A DNA stretch of 64,000 bases from positions 682,001 through 746,000 of the forward strand of contig NZ_CP008743.1 of assembly GCF_002117145.1 (NCBI RefSeq). The letters are read 5' to 3'. The notes beneath the pieces were generated by a model. That model did no database searches, had not been told where the DNA came from, and saw only the letters and a program-made list of their open reading frames with translations. The position numbers and the translations under genes are program-made. Shown piece after piece: positions 4,658-59,531 of this stretch (positions within the stretch are counted from its first letter, which is position 1; every line of letters begins with the position of its first letter). This DNA comes from Candidatus Nucleicultrix amoebiphila FS5. Its GTDB lineage: Bacteria; Pseudomonadota; Alphaproteobacteria; Caedimonadales; Nucleicultricaceae.

Positions 4658-5167
4658 ATGAAAGTAACACTAAAAAATGAACTCACCACAAGAAATAAAA
4701 AAATCCTTAACAATTTTAATATTGAGGTTAGTAGCCATAAGAATGATATTTCTGTAAAACTTCCAAAGGGTTTATTTGGTTTTAGCCAAGAACAAAACTT
4801 TCTTTTAAAAAATTTTCCTCAAGATAAATTTTCTCCATTTCGCGTATTATATAATCCTGAAGCTCCTGATTACTCTTTTATAGTGTTACCTGCAGAGTCT
4901 CTCAACGGATTCGCTCTTAGTGATCAAGAAAAAAATAAAACAGCTTCATTTTATGGAATCGCTGAAAAATCTGTCAAAATTTTATATATTGTTACTATTC
5001 AGAATAGTGGCAATTCTTATGAGATTACGGCTAATTTAAAAGCTCCGATCGTTTTAGATAAAGATAATAACTTGGCGTGGCAACATATTTTAGATAACCC
5101 TGACTATCAAGTTGATTACTCTCTTACTGCCATTTCGGAAACAATCAAGCTACATAAAGATAATTGA
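4658..5167 (+). CDS. fliW: flagellar assembly factor FliW
   Basis: About 169 residues matching FliW: LPKGLFGFSQEQNFLL near the start, the SPFRVLYNPEAPDYSFIVLP segment, and the very characteristic NLKAPIVLD followed by a Y-x-V-D ending. In Bacillus and Campylobacter FliW binds flagellin and antagonises the RNA-binding repressor CsrA. Here it directly follows flgL, as in Firmicutes (flgK-flgL-fliW-csrA), but no csrA follows. I prefer ATG 4658 because GAGGGGG (4646-4651) is well spaced before it; ATG 4643 has no SD. The gene ends the flagellar run. Confidence 0.8.
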   Translation: MKVTLKNELTTRNKKILNNFNIEVSSHKNDISVKLPKGLFGFSQEQNFLLKNFPQDKFSPFRVLYNPEAPDYSFIVLPAESLNGFALSDQEKNKTASFYGIAEKSVKILYIVTIQNSGNSYEITANLKAPIVLDKDNNLAWQHILDNPDYQVDYSLTAISETIKLHKDN

Positions 5168-5175
5168 GTCTTTAA

Positions 5176-5225
5176 AAGAACAATGTCATGATAACTAAAA
5201 GTTCTTCATAAGGAAGTTATCATGA
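5176..5225 (+). promoter_or_regulatory. inverted repeat enclosing RBS and start codon of the L,D-transpeptidase gene
   Basis: TCATGATAACT at 5186-5196 is exactly complementary to AGTTATCATGA at 5215-5225, an 11-bp perfect stem. The right arm contains the ATG (5222-5224), and the Shine-Dalgarno AAGGA lies at the loop edge. A second 6-bp pairing, AAGAAC 5176-5181 with GTTCTT 5201-5206, has one arm inside the loop of the first, so both together would form an H-type pseudoknot. Such a structure in the mRNA should block ribosome entry; alternatively the DNA dyad is a protein operator. Function is inferred; the pairing is seen directly. Confidence 0.55.
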
Positions 5226-6889
5226 AAAAATTATCAATACTGCATTTACTAGTGATTGTTTTCAGTTTGAACGTTTCCATCAACATGGGGCAAGCAAGAG
5301 CGGAAGAGTTTACAACTCCTGTTGAGTTAGTGCAAACAACTGAGTCCTTCAGTCATGATATAAAACATTTCTTGCATAAGCTCATTAAGGAAAAAAAAGT
5401 TTTATCTTCTCAAGAGAAATTTCTTGTTGATCTCTATACAGCACGAGAATTTGAACCCTTGTGGCTCGATGATTCAGGAAACCTAAAAGATAGCACCTAT
5501 TATGCTATAGAAACATTACTAAATGCAGCTAATGAAGGAGTAGATCCTGAAGACTATGCTCAAACTGTCGAAACATTTAAGGGTTTCTATAATGATCCTA
5601 ATCAGCGCCTTAAGGCCGAATTTACTCTTAGCAAGGCCATTGATAGCTATATCGATGATTTAACAGGGTCAAGGTTAAGTCCTAAAAAAATTGATAAAAG
5701 ATTATACTTGAATCCAGATCCTGTCGAATCAGCACACGTTGTTCTCCATGGATTTCAAAATGATCCTTCGGGATTATGGCTCAAAACATTCACTCTCGAA
5801 AGTCCAGAGTATCAAACATTAAAAGGTATTCTTGCAAAATATCGATCAATCGAATCTCGAGGAGGATGGCCCTCTTTACCCACGGGGCCAGCTCTTAAGA
5901 AAGGAATGAAAGAGCATCGAGTTTCGGTCTTACGTCAAATACTCTTTATGCAAGGAGATTTAGAAGATGAAACGCAATCACCAAATTTTGATGATGCTGT
6001 AGAACAAGCTGTGAAACGCTTTCAAAATCGTCATGGTATTGAACCAGATGGAATTGTTGGCAACGGAACCGTGACAGCGCTTAATATTCCGGTAAATCAA
6101 AAAATCAAACAAATTCTCATTTCAATGGAACGGTGGCGTTGGTTGCCGCAAAATTTAGGAGAGCGCTATGTTATGGTGAATATTGCTGGCATGGAGCTTA
6201 AAGCTGTCGAAAAAGGTAAAAGTCCTTTATCCATGAAAGTTATCGTGGGCATGAATTATAGGCAAACTCCTGTTTTTTCATCTTCAATCTACTCAATTCG
6301 TTTTAATCCAGTATGGAACGTTCCGCGTCTCATTGCAGTTCAGGACAAGTTAAAACTTATTCATAAAGACCCAGGATATCTAAGAAAAAAGGGCTTTGTA
6401 GTTTATGATGGATCAGGCAGTCAAATTAATCCAGATGATGTTGATTGGTCTAACGTAACAGCCGAAAATTTCGACTATCATTTTAAACAATTACCTGGCT
6501 CCATGAATGCTTTAGGCAAGATAAGATTTTCTATTCGAAGTCCCTTTGATGTTTATCTTCACTCAACTTCAGACCCTCAGTTATTTAATAAAAGCTCACG
6601 ATATTTGAGTTCAGGATGTATTCGCGTTGAAAAACCTGTTGAGTTAGCTATGTTTGTCTTTAATAATCCACAACAATGGCCCAGAGAAAAAATTGAAAGT
6701 TCTATGGAAGGCAATATTACTAATAATGTAGACTTAAAAAACCCCGTCCCCGTTCACATAACTTATTTTACTGTATGGGAGGATTCCGACGGTCTTGTAC
6801 ATTTTGCCAATGATATTTATGGACAAGATCAACGCATTTGGCTTTCTCTTGAAGAGCAGCGAAAGGGTCGTTTTAGTCAAAAAGCTTAA
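5222..6889 (+). CDS. ldtD: L,D-transpeptidase, YcbB/LdtD-like
   Basis: A periplasmic enzyme that would form 3-3 (mDap-mDap) peptidoglycan crosslinks. Order of parts in 555 residues: Sec signal peptide (1-27, cleavage after QARA), the Ldt scaffold domain (about 50-230), a PG_binding_1 domain (about 235-285, with AVKRFQNRHGIEPDG), then the YkuD catalytic domain (about 315-480). The catalytic motif is H-S-T ... SSGCIR with the nucleophile at Cys466. This arrangement is that of E. coli LdtD (YcbB), and the MepK-like gene follows as it does in E. coli (ycbB-ycbK). The start codon sits in a strong inverted repeat. Length is close to the family norm. Confidence 0.9.
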   Translation: MKKLSILHLLVIVFSLNVSINMGQARAEEFTTPVELVQTTESFSHDIKHFLHKLIKEKKVLSSQEKFLVDLYTAREFEPLWLDDSGNLKDSTYYAIETLLNAANEGVDPEDYAQTVETFKGFYNDPNQRLKAEFTLSKAIDSYIDDLTGSRLSPKKIDKRLYLNPDPVESAHVVLHGFQNDPSGLWLKTFTLESPEYQTLKGILAKYRSIESRGGWPSLPTGPALKKGMKEHRVSVLRQILFMQGDLEDETQSPNFDDAVEQAVKRFQNRHGIEPDGIVGNGTVTALNIPVNQKIKQILISMERWRWLPQNLGERYVMVNIAGMELKAVEKGKSPLSMKVIVGMNYRQTPVFSSSIYSIRFNPVWNVPRLIAVQDKLKLIHKDPGYLRKKGFVVYDGSGSQINPDDVDWSNVTAENFDYHFKQLPGSMNALGKIRFSIRSPFDVYLHSTSDPQLFNKSSRYLSSGCIRVEKPVELAMFVFNNPQQWPREKIESSMEGNITNNVDLKNPVPVHITYFTVWEDSDGLVHFANDIYGQDQRIWLSLEEQRKGRFSQKA

Positions 6890-6910
6890 AAACAAAAAGT
6901 TTTTTAGCTT
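6882..6910 (+). terminator. AT-rich hairpin at the end of the L,D-transpeptidase gene
   Basis: AAGCTTAAAAAC (6882-6893) pairs with GTTTTTTAGCTT (6899-6910) with one T-T mismatch and a five-A loop; the stop codon lies in the left arm. There is no U-run after the stem, so it is only a weak candidate for a terminator. It could instead protect the 3' end of the mRNA. Confidence 0.3.
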
Positions 6911-6978
6911 GATTCATTTGGCAGTTTTTAATAACACCGAATGAGTATATAATTACATTGTGAAGCATAGGGGATCTT

Positions 6979-7545
6979 ATGAACAACGGCTTTAAATTGA
7001 CTAGACGACAGTTCTTGGTTGGAACAAGCGCCACTATGGCAACTTCTCTTGTCACCCCATCTATTGCAAAAGCACAAACTCCTGTTAAAGCTCTCAGCTT
7101 ATATAATACACATACAGGAGAATTTTTCAAAGAAGCCTATTGCGAACATGGTTGCTACATCAAAGAATCGATCGCAAAAATTAATCATATTATGCGTGAT
7201 TGGCGCACAAATGAAATAACACAAATGGACGTTAAGCTCATTGATCTGTTACATCATCTTCATCAGAAAATAGGCAATAACAAGCCTTTTGAGATTATTT
7301 CAGCCTATCGTTGTCCTCGCACAAACTCAATGTTAAGAGAAGCTGGCAATCATGTGGCAAAAAATAGCTTTCATTTAAAAGGGCAGGCTATTGATATTCA
7401 AATGTCTGGTTTTAATCTTCAATACTTAAGAGATGCAGCCTATCAAACAAATGCAAAAGGGGTTGGGTATTATCCTAGTTCTGGCTTTATTCACGTTGAT
7501 GTTGGTCATAGAGCTCATAAAAAGAATCTTCAGGCTCGTTGGTAA
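6979..7545 (+). CDS. mepK: MepK/YcbK-like murein endopeptidase (DUF882, M15 type), Tat signal
   Basis: 188 residues. The N-terminus carries a twin-arginine signal (LTRRQFLVGTSATMATS) ending near AKA at about residue 33. The catalytic part has ISAYRCPRTNSMLR, then FHLKGQAIDI, with His132 and Asp139, and FIHVDVGHRA with His172, the zinc ligands of the M15/LAS fold. E. coli MepK cleaves the mDap-mDap crosslinks made by L,D-transpeptidases, and the gene is next to ldtD there as well as here. So this protein probably removes or edits crosslinks made by its neighbour. GGGGATC about 6 bases before ATG is the likely RBS; a TATAAT at about 6946 could serve as its own -10 box. Confidence 0.85.
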   Translation: MNNGFKLTRRQFLVGTSATMATSLVTPSIAKAQTPVKALSLYNTHTGEFFKEAYCEHGCYIKESIAKINHIMRDWRTNEITQMDVKLIDLLHHLHQKIGNNKPFEIISAYRCPRTNSMLREAGNHVAKNSFHLKGQAIDIQMSGFNLQYLRDAAYQTNAKGVGYYPSSGFIHVDVGHRAHKKNLQARW

Positions 7546-7615
7546 ATCAATTATTATTGGTTTATTAACCTAATCCTCTTAAAATACTTGCAAAATAATT
7601 CAGGAGGATACTCGT

Positions 7616-8974
7616 TTGTCAACACAACAAAAATCTAGCTTAAAAAAAGGCCAAAAGATCACTTTTACAAAAGCCTTTACACCAAGAGAGCTTCAGATCT
7701 GTTCAATTTTTGGCACAAACGGAGATGAGGAAACACTCCTTAAAACTCATGGCCCCTGTCACTTAACTCTCTCAGGTCAAGGTTGGCTTGAGAATCTCAT
7801 ACTCTTAACTTTAAGCAAATATACATCCAAAATTGTCCCCCTCATTCGTGAACAAAATTTAAGTTTCGTACGTCCACCAAACTTAGGAGAAACAATCACT
7901 CTAGAGTTAGACGTAAAGGAAAAAGATGAGGGCAATGAAGCATCTCTTTCTTGTGAATTTAAAACGTCGCTCGGTGAAGTAATTGGAAGTGGAGCTCTTA
8001 TTGTTTCATTAAGCCCTGAAGAGTCTTCAACTGAATCTTTGACTTTTCAATGCCCAGGACATCATCACCAACATCTTGTTAATAGAGCAAAAAAAAATCC
8101 TCCAATGAAAGTTGGAATAGTGCATCCTATGGACGCGATATCTTTATTAGCAGCGATTGAAGCTCATAAACAAGGGTTTATTGAAGCAGTTCTTATTGGC
8201 CCTGAGGCACGCTTACAAAGACTAGCCAATGACCTAAATGTGGATTTAAGTCCTTATAAAATTTTTTCTACCCATCACAGTCATGAATCCGCAGCCACAG
8301 GCGTCAAATTGGCTAAAGATGGAGAAGTCAATACACTCATGAAGGGGGCCATTCATACAAATGAATTCTTATCCTTTATCATCGCAAAAGATTCAGGCCT
8401 ACGTACAGATAGAAGGATGAGTCATATCATGATCAATGATTTACCAAATTATCCCAAACTTCTACTTGTGACTGATGCTGCTATCAACATTTTGCCTGAC
8501 TTAGAATGCAAAGTAGATATTATCCAAAATGCAATAGATCTAGCTCATTCTTTTGGAATTGAAAAACCAAAAGTAGCACTTCTTTCTGCTATAGAAACCG
8601 TCAATCCGAAAATTCAATCCACTGTAGATGCTGCAGCTCTTTCTAAAATGGCTGAACGTGGACAAATAATGGGCGGTATTATTGATGGACCGTTAGCGTT
8701 TGATAATGCTATTTCAAAAGAATCTGCTGAAATAAAACATATTCACTCTCCTGTTGCTGGAGATCCTGACATTCTCGTATGTCCAGACCTTGAATCAGGT
8801 AATATTTTAGTTAAACAATTTAAATATCTTGCAGGTGCTCAAGAGGCTGGAATCGTTATGGGTGCTAAAGTTCCATTTATTCTCACAAGTAGATCGGAAG
8901 ACATCAACAGTAGGGTTGTCTCTGCTGCCATTGCAAATTTACTTTTTCACCATCGTCATGGAACGCATAGATAG
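7616..8974 (+). CDS. bifunctional MaoC-type enoyl-CoA hydratase / phosphate acetyltransferase
   Basis: 452 residues with two parts. Residues 1 to about 145 form a MaoC-like hot-dog domain (FVRPPNLGETITLELDVKEK). Residues about 160-450 form a phosphate acetyl/butyryl transferase domain (MKVGIVHPMDAISLLAA ... VMGAKVPFILTSRSEDINSR). It should interconvert acetyl-CoA and acetyl phosphate, feeding ackA which begins 2 bases later. This fusion beside ackA is common in alphaproteobacteria. The start is TTG at 7616, supported by a perfect AGGAGG at 7602-7607 with 8-base spacing; no suitable ATG is nearby. The role of the MaoC half is not clear from the sequence. Confidence 0.88.
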   Translation: MSTQQKSSLKKGQKITFTKAFTPRELQICSIFGTNGDEETLLKTHGPCHLTLSGQGWLENLILLTLSKYTSKIVPLIREQNLSFVRPPNLGETITLELDVKEKDEGNEASLSCEFKTSLGEVIGSGALIVSLSPEESSTESLTFQCPGHHHQHLVNRAKKNPPMKVGIVHPMDAISLLAAIEAHKQGFIEAVLIGPEARLQRLANDLNVDLSPYKIFSTHHSHESAATGVKLAKDGEVNTLMKGAIHTNEFLSFIIAKDSGLRTDRRMSHIMINDLPNYPKLLLVTDAAINILPDLECKVDIIQNAIDLAHSFGIEKPKVALLSAIETVNPKIQSTVDAAALSKMAERGQIMGGIIDGPLAFDNAISKESAEIKHIHSPVAGDPDILVCPDLESGNILVKQFKYLAGAQEAGIVMGAKVPFILTSRSEDINSRVVSAAIANLLFHHRHGTHR

Positions 8975-56477: not shown

Positions 56478-56589
56478 AATATTGTTTTACCATAAAATGC
56501 AGCCAACGAGAGTAGGATTTTTTTATCCTTCATGACGTAAGCCTTTTTTTCATGTTAAGTTATTGAACATAAAAAAAATTGGGGGCGCA

Positions 56590-58485
56590 ATGAATAATTG
56601 GGTATACTTAGCTTTAGCTTTGTTAATAGGATTTTCCATGAACTTTATGAATGCTGCTGCTAAAGCAAGTAAATCTGAACTCAGTTATGAAGATTTTAAA
56701 GCTTCGGTTGATTTTGAAGATACTACAACAGAAAAGCGTCATCCAAAAACCTTTGGTCTTAGTCAAACCATGAAAAAAAATCGACAAGCTGGCTTAGAAC
56801 TTCTCCATAATGTTGATCAAGAAAATATATCCCCTTTAAAAAATGCTTTTGCACAACACCAGTCTCAACTTCTCTCTGAATTATCAAGCTGTTTCAAAAC
56901 TGAAGGACGCTTAATCCTAGTGGGATCGGGAACGAGTGGTCGTATTGCCCTCCAATTAGAAGCTGAATGGCGTCAATATTGGCAAAAACAGTCATCGGAG
57001 CAGAATCTTTTTCATTATGAAAATGCTGTCTGTGCTGTAATTGCAGGTGGTCCACGTGCCTTTGTCCGCGCCAAAGAAGGCTTTGAAGACAGCGTTTCTT
57101 CGGGAAAAGAAGCAATAAAAAATTTAAAGGTGCACCCAAAAGATATTGTTGTATTAATTTCTGCGAGTGGCTCAGCCAAATTCAATATTGGCGCAGGCAT
57201 TGAAGCGCGTAACTCTCACTGCCAAACTTATTATTTTTACAATAGTGAAACGCCTTCAAAAATGACTAAAACCCTTTTTGAAGACTATCAAGTGCAACAC
57301 ATTCGATTAGTCACTGGTCCTCAATCCATTACGGGTTCAACACGTTTGCAAGCTGGAACCATGGGTCTTGCTTTTTGGGGGCATCTTTTAAATCAAGTTG
57401 CCCTCAATATTACTGATGCAGACTCTATAGAAGATGCTGCGACAACTTTCACCGATCAGGTAGCAGTCCTTCACTCGACGCTCAGAAATTTTTTACCCAC
57501 AGTGTCCACTATCATTCAGTTAGAAAAAGATGTTTTATCTGACGAGAATGCTGATTTTTATAAAACAAAAGCGACCAATCAAAAGGGGTATATCACCTTT
57601 ATTGCTCCTCCTAAGACTTTACCCACTGTTAAAATTGATGCCACAGAAACAGCTCCAACATTTTCGACCAATCCACCCAGATCTGTGAAGGATAAAGCAA
57701 AACAATTAAAGGAAGCTGAATTCCGAGCCTATATGCTTGGATCTTCAACTAATAAAAAAGCGTGGCAAGATCTTTTGGGGCGCTCTTTGAATAGCGTTGA
57801 AGCGATAGACGCAGAAGAAATTTTGCTTTCTTCTCAAGCTGATGGCGATTATGGCGCCTTTAAAGATCGTCCAAAAGGTCTGGGAAACCTTGTTATTGGA
57901 GTTGCCAAAAGTCGATTAACTCCAGAACATGCCAGTGAAATGATCACTATCCTCAGCGACGCTAAAGCTAAGGGCGCTCAAACAGCTTTTATTGGAGTTC
58001 TTGAAGAAGATTCAATCGATGATCATGTGACTGCTTTAAAAGCTCTCACCCATGCTCCGCTCATCATTCCTTACAAAGTAGAAAATGATCCTTTAAACAT
58101 TTTGTCAACCATACTTCTCAAACAATGCTTGAATCTCATTTCTAATGGCACAATGATTGAAATGGGGAAAGTATACGATAACTTGATGATCGACGTTTCG
58201 CCTTCCAATGATAAACTTATTGATCGTGTTATACGCCTCGTTCAAACAATTCATTCTATGCATCATGATGAAAGCACTAAACTTGACGAAAAAGACCTCT
58301 ATCACATGGTCTTGGAAACAAAAAAACTCAAAAAATCCTTTGAAGAAGACCAAGGCATCTCAACACCTCCTATTGTAAAAACTATTCTAACGATGATTGA
58401 GAAAAGTGTTGATTTTGTAACAGCCATCACCCTGCTTCAAGAAAATGACCAAGATTTTGAGACTTTGCTATATTCTCAAAAATAG
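56590..58485 (+). CDS. two-SIS-domain MurQ/GCKR-like protein with export-type N-terminus
   Basis: About 631 residues from ATG 56590 (GGGGG upstream); TTG 56563 would add nine residues with two Lys. The N-terminus WVYLALALLIGFSMNFMNAA, ending AAAKA, resembles a signal peptide. Next comes a MurQ-type SIS domain: VGSGTSGRIALQLEAEW, IAGGPRAFVRAKEGFEDSVS, ISASGSAKFNIG, TGSTRLQAGTM. A long middle part follows, and the MurQ-like C-terminal block LNLISNGTMIEMGKVYDNLM is found only at about 515-535. So a second SIS-like unit of about 250 residues is inserted, as in animal glucokinase regulatory protein (GCKR). The usual MurQ Glu in EGFEDS is kept. Activity is unknown; a sugar-phosphate enzyme outside the cytosol would be unexpected. 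Confidence 0.75.
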   Translation: MNNWVYLALALLIGFSMNFMNAAAKASKSELSYEDFKASVDFEDTTTEKRHPKTFGLSQTMKKNRQAGLELLHNVDQENISPLKNAFAQHQSQLLSELSSCFKTEGRLILVGSGTSGRIALQLEAEWRQYWQKQSSEQNLFHYENAVCAVIAGGPRAFVRAKEGFEDSVSSGKEAIKNLKVHPKDIVVLISASGSAKFNIGAGIEARNSHCQTYYFYNSETPSKMTKTLFEDYQVQHIRLVTGPQSITGSTRLQAGTMGLAFWGHLLNQVALNITDADSIEDAATTFTDQVAVLHSTLRNFLPTVSTIIQLEKDVLSDENADFYKTKATNQKGYITFIAPPKTLPTVKIDATETAPTFSTNPPRSVKDKAKQLKEAEFRAYMLGSSTNKKAWQDLLGRSLNSVEAIDAEEILLSSQADGDYGAFKDRPKGLGNLVIGVAKSRLTPEHASEMITILSDAKAKGAQTAFIGVLEEDSIDDHVTALKALTHAPLIIPYKVENDPLNILSTILLKQCLNLISNGTMIEMGKVYDNLMIDVSPSNDKLIDRVIRLVQTIHSMHHDESTKLDEKDLYHMVLETKKLKKSFEEDQGISTPPIVKTILTMIEKSVDFVTAITLLQENDQDFETLLYSQK

Positions 58486-58538: not shown

Positions 58539-59531
58539 ATGAAAATATTTGCTGAAAAACTAGCCAAAGGAGATGAGGTCAGGGTCATAGCCCCCTCCCG
58601 AAGTCTTAAAATCATATCTGCGGATAATATTTCTTACGCCGTGAAGGTTCTAGAATCATTAGGACTGAAAGTAACTTTTGGCAAACATGTGAATGAAGAA
58701 GATACGTTTCAATCGTCATCTATATCATCGCGCATAGAAGACCTGCATGATGCCTTCCATGATAAAAACGTCAAAGCCATCCTTGCCGTTATCGGAGGAT
58801 CTAATGCTAATCAGCTTCTCAAATACATCGACTATGATCTCATCAAAAGCAATCCTAAGATCTTTTGTGGATTTTCTGATATTACAGCTTTACAAAATGC
58901 TATCTACCATAAGACCGGTTTAGTTACTTATTCTGGCCCCCAATTCAGCTCTTTTGCAATGAAAAAAGGATTTGAGTATACGCGCGATTTTTTTAAGAAA
59001 ATATTTTTTGATTCTTCGCCAATTCATTTAACCGTATCAGAAACTTGGTCAAACGATGCCTGGTTTTCAGATCAAGAAAATAGGATTTTTCACGTCAACG
59101 AGGGTTATTGGATTATTCATCCCGGTGATGCCACAGGGACAATTGTCGGAGGCAATTTAAGCACAATTCAATTACTTCACGGCACAGCCTACATGCCTTC
59201 CTTTAAAAATACAGTTTTGTTTTTAGAAGCTGACTCTATTACAGAAGGCGCCTGCGTTTTTGAATTCGACCGTGATCTTCAATCCCTCATACATCAACCT
59301 TACTTTGATCAAGTAAAAGCTCTCATTATTGGTCGTTTTGAACAAAAATTCAGCATGGATTTAGAAAAACTCACATTGATCATCAACTCAAAACAAGAGT
59401 TAAATGATATTCCCGTCATTGCCAATGCTGACTTTGGTCATACAACTCCCATATTTACCTTTCCCATAGGGGGCTTATGTGTTCTTAAATCTAATCAGAC
59501 ATCAGTAACGATCAATTTGATAGAGCATTGA
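58539..59531 (+). CDS. S66 family LD-carboxypeptidase (LdcA/MccF type)
   Basis: 330 residues. The nucleophile is Ser in KIFCGFSDITALQNAIY; the acid is in NTVLFLEADS, and the His in NADFGHTTPIFTFPIG completes the S66 triad. AVIGGSNANQLLKYID and TGTIVGGNLSTIQLL are the usual flanking motifs. Its N-terminus is DEVRVIAPSRSLKII. LdcA cuts the terminal D-Ala from recycled muropeptides; MccF members act on peptide-nucleotide antibiotics, and the pattern fits this subgroup. It lies 53 bases after the MurQ/GCKR-like gene; MurQ and LdcA both belong to peptidoglycan recycling. No signal peptide, so cytosolic. Confidence 0.85.
   Translation: MKIFAEKLAKGDEVRVIAPSRSLKIISADNISYAVKVLESLGLKVTFGKHVNEEDTFQSSSISSRIEDLHDAFHDKNVKAILAVIGGSNANQLLKYIDYDLIKSNPKIFCGFSDITALQNAIYHKTGLVTYSGPQFSSFAMKKGFEYTRDFFKKIFFDSSPIHLTVSETWSNDAWFSDQENRIFHVNEGYWIIHPGDATGTIVGGNLSTIQLLHGTAYMPSFKNTVLFLEADSITEGACVFEFDRDLQSLIHQPYFDQVKALIIGRFEQKFSMDLEKLTLIINSKQELNDIPVIANADFGHTTPIFTFPIGGLCVLKSNQTSVTINLIEH

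Follow-up and report, generated by a model that had tools for sequence, protein, structure and literature searches.

A bacterial MurQ-related protein with the two-SIS architecture of animal GKRP and a candidate single-chain etherase site

Introduction

What kind of protein carries MurQ motifs in two separate blocks and begins with what looks like a signal peptide? The window analysed here (a stretch of 64,000 nucleotides) encodes such a protein, P0001, on the forward strand as a single open frame of 631 residues (56590..58485, ATG at 56590). An alternative TTG start at 56563 adds MNIKKIGGA. A preliminary description likened P0001 to animal GCKR (GKRP), considered it exported-looking, proposed that it might bind or cleave muramic sugars without phosphorylation or serve as a sensor, and pointed to an S66 LD-carboxypeptidase as its neighbor. 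Here, we ask whether P0001 is a two-SIS protein, whether it could be catalytically active, and where it might act.

Results

Two SIS units and a lid in one polypeptide

A profile made from ordinary MurQ proteins scores 105 bits against P0001 at residues 41-257 and 52 bits at residues 511-565. The 253 residues between these matches agree with the extra region of about 250 residues that had been described as framed by MurQ motifs and a C-terminal MurQ block. The first part contains SIS1 (residues 104-258, 56899..57363, forward strand), which is delimited by this profile, the family alignment and Pfam GKRP_SIS_N (residues 103-201, 51.2 bits with a cut-off of 27) and carries GTSGR (residues 114-118, 56929-56943), EGFED (residues 163-167, 57076-57090), ISASGSA (57157-57177) and GPQSITGSTR (residues 243-252, with GSTR at 57334-57345). 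The second part, the MurQ C-terminal block at residues 511-565, contains the lid (residues 511-560, 58120..58269, forward strand) with GKVYDNLMIDV and SNDKLIDR; it scores 20.8 bits against Pfam GKRP-like_C, under the cut-off of 27.7. P0001 scores above the cut-off for PRK05441 (173.6 bits; cut-off 168) and below that for TIGR00274 (142 bits; cut-off 302), and in a PDB search MurQ is at the top (4s12, 2.8e-25), followed by GKRP.

Single-sequence searches detect little in residues 258-510, and a Pfam search gave no match to GKRP_SIS_2. By contrast, a family profile of this middle unit together with the lid aligns end-to-end with MurQ (hhalign probability 99.7, part of which is carried by the lid), placing IDATETAPTF of P0001 on MurQ LDASECPPTF. 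Based on this alignment, the model strands and the family alignment, SIS2 spans about residues 330-500 (57577..58089, forward strand) and includes DATETAPTF with Glu353 (57637-57663). An AlphaFold2 model of P0001 (5 sequences, pLDDT 68, pTM 0.71) contains two five-stranded units, at residues 108-239 and 335-495, rather than a single SIS fold; the loop that holds E353 (residues 349-377) has a pLDDT below 50. The best structural match to the whole model is GKRP (Foldseek 6e-15), and comparison with GKRP 4bba gives a VIA Z of 33.2 with an rmsd of 3.4 over 461 residues, while the next family reaches Z 24.6. Sequence, profile-profile alignment and fold match thus agree on the GCKR-like two-SIS plan. 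The fold and family membership of P0001 are well supported, and we regard its architecture and family as firm. By the profile alignment, the middle unit is a second, decayed MurQ-type SIS domain. A recent tandem duplication as the origin of SIS1 and SIS2 was considered and rejected because the profiles of the two units do not align with each other.

Relatives in Chlamydiota and Dependentiae

No relative was found when genome contigs were scanned with P0001 alone, nor when viral contigs were scanned, and plasmids as well as 783 genomes (385 alphaproteobacterial and 398 Pseudomonadota-wide) gave single-SIS MurQ only. A scan with the residues common to P0001 and GKRP identified four full-length relatives, recorded as one Chlamydiae, two Verrucomicrobia and one Babeliales MAG. 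Full-length relatives with 35-39% identity to P0001 are present in genomes of Chlamydiota and Dependentiae, with phyla assigned according to the genome grouping of the search tool: about 24 of 232 genomes in the Chlamydiota phylum, including two Verrucomicrobia-named MAGs, and 4 of 101 in Dependentiae, the phylum of the Babeliales MAG, encode a two-SIS protein. P0001 aligns with this family over its full length and has the invariant D-x-x-E-x-x-PTF in SIS2. In the two-SIS tree, the phyla interleave on well-supported branches, which implies that transfer happened more than once; the nearest relative of P0001 is placed without good support.

Several relatives depart from the common form. In L095 (G793, 5080-7728), an adenosine-deaminase-like domain (PF00962, 99.8 bits) precedes the fused two-SIS protein, and the matches in L056 and L058 (G804 and G794) contain one in-frame stop codon each, possibly due to decay or assembly error. 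Among the papers searched, none pairs MurQ with GKRP, Holosporales or Chlamydiae, and an earlier report of a bacterial two-SIS protein is possible.

A candidate composite active site

In an alignment of 29 two-SIS proteins including P0001 (28 sequences at some columns), GxxGR and ED in SIS1, D/E/PTF in SIS2 and N/KL/R in the lid are held in common. In P0001 numbering, G117, R118, E166 and D167 of SIS1 are conserved in 28/28 sequences, G249-R252, D350, E353 and P356-F358 in 29/29, and N540 of the lid in 27/28, with K542, L543 and R546 conserved in 28/28. P0001 has the MurQ-type phosphate loop (GTSGR) and glutamates at both catalytic positions, E166 in SIS1 and E353 in SIS2; the corresponding MurQ residues, E89 and E120 in H. 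influenzae, are catalytic. In the 29 proteins, SIS2 has lost the phosphate loop and SIS1 the MurQ glutamate at Ser+10, which is mostly Lys and is kept as Glu126 only in P0001.

In GKRP, the sugar-phosphate site is made up of SIS1, Glu348 and His351 of SIS2, and the lid, with E153 (SIS1), E348 (SIS2), N512/K514/L515/R518 (lid) and G256/S258/R259 as ligand residues (PMC4109836). In PDB alignments, these ligand residues map onto conserved residues of the two-SIS family. In NagS, a MurQ relative, the Ser+10 residue is supplied by the other monomer (PMC12680351). Given these precedents, the retention of the SIS1 phosphate loop and the SIS2 glutamate leads us to expect one complete composite site, as in GKRP. 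NagS is also a MurQ relative with a changed reaction, and P0001 could likewise be a lyase or dehydratase for another substrate such as GlcNAc-6-P. We consider this quite improbable because the trans position is Arg in NagS and Glu in the two-SIS family, as in MurQ. Residue conservation in itself is no proof of catalysis, since GKRP keeps the same two glutamates despite the reported loss of its etherase ancestor's activity (PMC3613411). We regard P0001 as a likely etherase.

A divergent clade of proteins of about 700 residues (L105-L111, in G819, G843, G831, G880, G834, G882 and G817), accounting for 7 of the about 24 two-SIS genomes of the Chlamydiota phylum, has lost the phosphate serines, its phosphate-binding motifs being replaced by GCGATGR and TEGGETSS, but retains DxTExxPTF. 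Its members may have another function.

Linkage to BadF-family kinases

A BadF-family kinase gene (PF01869) directly adjoins the two-SIS gene in L042, L043, L044, L092 and L099, and in L100 and L103 the kinase is fused to the two-SIS protein; no other widely recurring neighbor was found at the loci of the relatives. T. forsythia MurK belongs to the same family and its gene lies beside murQ (PMC5790795). The conserved phosphate-binding loop and this coupling or fusion to BadF/MurK-type kinases speak against the earlier suggestion that P0001 acts on muramic sugars without phosphorylation.

Nearly all of the kinases of these seven relatives have signal-peptide-like N-termini, that of L103 being the weakest. 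Their starts lie 30-38 residues ahead of the xGGG motif and include hydrophobic signal-like segments, and these starts are favored by the arrangement in L092, L099 and L042, where one frame of the gene pair directly adjoins the other or overlaps it. In the kinase-MurQ fusion L034, which lacks a signal, the start is 9 residues ahead of the motif.

Linked kinases also bear on whether P0001 is a non-catalytic phosphosugar sensor or a kinase regulator, with the BadF kinase as a target in the way that glucokinase is a target of GKRP. GKRP as the best fold match, the kinases adjacent or fused in relatives, and the retention of both glutamates in GKRP without etherase activity fit such a role. However, the position of GKRP His351 is Pro in 29/29 proteins, as in MurQ, the genome encoding P0001 lacks the kinase, and the same kinase family is fused to single-SIS MurQ without a signal in L034 (a proteobacterial genome, kinase first) and L112 (a Chlamydiota-phylum genome, etherase first), which points to consecutive enzymes. 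A sensor or regulator is, therefore, unlikely.

The N-terminus and the question of export

The N-terminus of P0001, MNNWVYLALALLIGFSMNFMNAAAKA, contains a putative signal peptide with a hydrophobic segment at residues 5-24 (56602..56661, forward strand) followed by AKA/S, as suggested by hydrophobicity, the AxA motif and the relatives. Its best 11-residue mean hydrophobicity is 2.60, compared to a mean of 1.1 and a maximum of 2.08 for 27 ordinary MurQ proteins. Most two-SIS relatives start with a hydrophobic signal-like segment, while L093, L095, L097, L098 and L102 do not; the exported look of P0001 thus extends to most, but not all, of its family. Export of the family is probable on these grounds, and that of P0001 itself is less sure. 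Signal peptides were predicted for 44% of the proteins of one Dependentiae species (PMC6561590), and export of enzymes may accordingly be general in Dependentiae. In a Dependentiae-phylum genome (L119), a single-SIS MurQ and a flavin-reductase-looking open reading frame (8071-8721 and 5704-6657) both have signal-like N-termini, as does the kinase of this MurQ.

Alternatively, P0001 could be an ordinary cytosolic MurNAc-6-P etherase in which the N-terminal stretch is no working signal and which replaces MurQ after AnmK in peptidoglycan recycling. A search of the 1.84-Mb genome for a normal murQ or a second GKRP_SIS_N/MurQ gene yielded none; P0001 is the only MurQ-like gene and sole GKRP_SIS_N match. 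A cytosolic AnmK without a signal peptide is present, a BadF kinase was not found in this genome, and the ATG form of P0001 has no positive charge in the n-region. Together, cytosolic AnmK and the missing BadF kinase would fit a cytosolic etherase and count against an exported pathway. On the other hand, hydrophobic N-termini recur in the two-SIS family, unlike in ordinary MurQ (p 5e-7, uncorrected for relatedness), P0001 has the AKA cleavage-like site, and the partner kinases of relatives carry signals as well. We consider the cytosolic reading rather doubtful, although it is the more serious of the alternatives.

The S66 LD-carboxypeptidase gene (58539..59531, forward strand, Pfam S66 128 bits) lies downstream of P0001, as had been described, and the lack of a signal-like segment at the N-terminus of its product would also suit a cytosolic etherase. 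However, an S66 gene lies beside the two-SIS gene at 0 of the other 30 loci examined, and a conserved linkage was rejected. Thus, this neighbor says little about P0001 and probably does not form a conserved unit with it. The genome is placed among the Alphaproteobacteria by the kinship groups of the search tool and by gene neighbors such as NDUFA12.

The same genome encodes, just upstream of AnmK (L125 284-1003, near C1:236,300), a uracil phosphoribosyltransferase (TIGR01091, 235 bits), a PRPP-using and normally cytosolic enzyme that is extended at its N-terminus by 30 residues resembling a signal peptide, MRLLKKIIIAGCILFASSSIKAKS. P0001 is, therefore, not the sole signal-like enzyme in its genome. 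The genome also has two full and one partial ATP/ADP translocases, whereas 14 control genomes have none; based on these translocases, the bacterium probably lives intracellularly.

Discussion

We suggest, with moderate confidence, that P0001 is a MurNAc-6-P etherase in a single chain and that it comes from a kinase-etherase pathway whose proteins are exported by intracellular bacteria, where we infer activity, export and place of action. In this model, SIS1, the decayed SIS2 and one lid would fold like a MurQ dimer within one polypeptide, in which only a single active site remains of the dimer's two. SIS1 would supply the phosphate loop and the glutamate of EGFED (E166), and SIS2 the second glutamate (E353), which the partner subunit would provide in a MurQ-type dimer. 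The lid, through N540, K542 and R546, would close the site. In this family of unrelated intracellular lineages (Chlamydiota, Dependentiae and the alphaproteobacterium), the two-SIS protein would follow a MurK/NagK-type kinase, both usually being exported. The kinase would convert MurNAc to MurNAc-6-P with ATP from the host, and the two-SIS protein would convert MurNAc-6-P to GlcNAc-6-P and D-lactate, both steps taking place either in the periplasm or inside the host cell. Exported kinases need ATP, and in energy parasites the periplasm could contain ATP from the host; we infer the link with the translocases. With a cytosolic AnmK and no BadF kinase in its genome, P0001 would either use MurNAc-6-P made elsewhere or be an etherase of the cytosol whose N-terminus is unusual.

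More tentatively, we propose that lateral transfer has given unrelated intracellular bacteria (Chlamydiota, Dependentiae and an alphaproteobacterium) a common exported kinase-etherase pathway for muramic sugars, which would be driven by ATP of the host, either in the periplasm or inside the host cell, and would use an etherase of GKRP architecture. If export is real, energy-parasitic bacteria would here have placed an ATP-using metabolic pathway outside their cytoplasm. Its phosphate would likely come from host ATP, and its substrates would be muramic sugars, which hosts can sense. NAGK phosphorylates muramyl dipeptide (PMC9477735).

The likeness to known systems is partial in each case. MurQ shares with P0001 the phosphate loop, the glutamates at both catalytic positions and the lid, and aligns with SIS2 and the lid as well. 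However, MurQ has one SIS domain in about 300 residues, no signal, and forms a dimer with two sites, whereas P0001 combines two SIS units in one chain of 631 residues, is expected to have a single complete site and starts with a signal-like segment. NagS, the Streptomyces GlcNAc-6-P dehydratase, is likewise a MurQ-related SIS protein and its active site is built from two subunits, but it has one SIS domain and Arg rather than Glu at the trans position. In the MurK-MurQ pathway (T. forsythia MurK, PF01869) and in kinase-MurQ fusions, a BadF-family kinase is encoded beside or fused to the etherase, as in the two-SIS relatives; the known pathway phosphorylates sugars after their import, while kinase and etherase of the two-SIS relatives are usually signal-like at the N-terminus. 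Finally, GKRP/GCKR (4bb9, 4ly9, 3w0l) shares with P0001 the one-chain order SIS1-SIS2-lid, a single composite phosphosugar site and corresponding residues. However, P0001 and GKRP are 18% identical, and P0001 does not match Pfam GKRP_SIS_2, has Pro at the position of His351 and shows no sign of a glucokinase partner. Bacterial proteins that combine the architecture of animal GKRP with a MurQ-type catalytic set bear on the origin of GKRP from an etherase.
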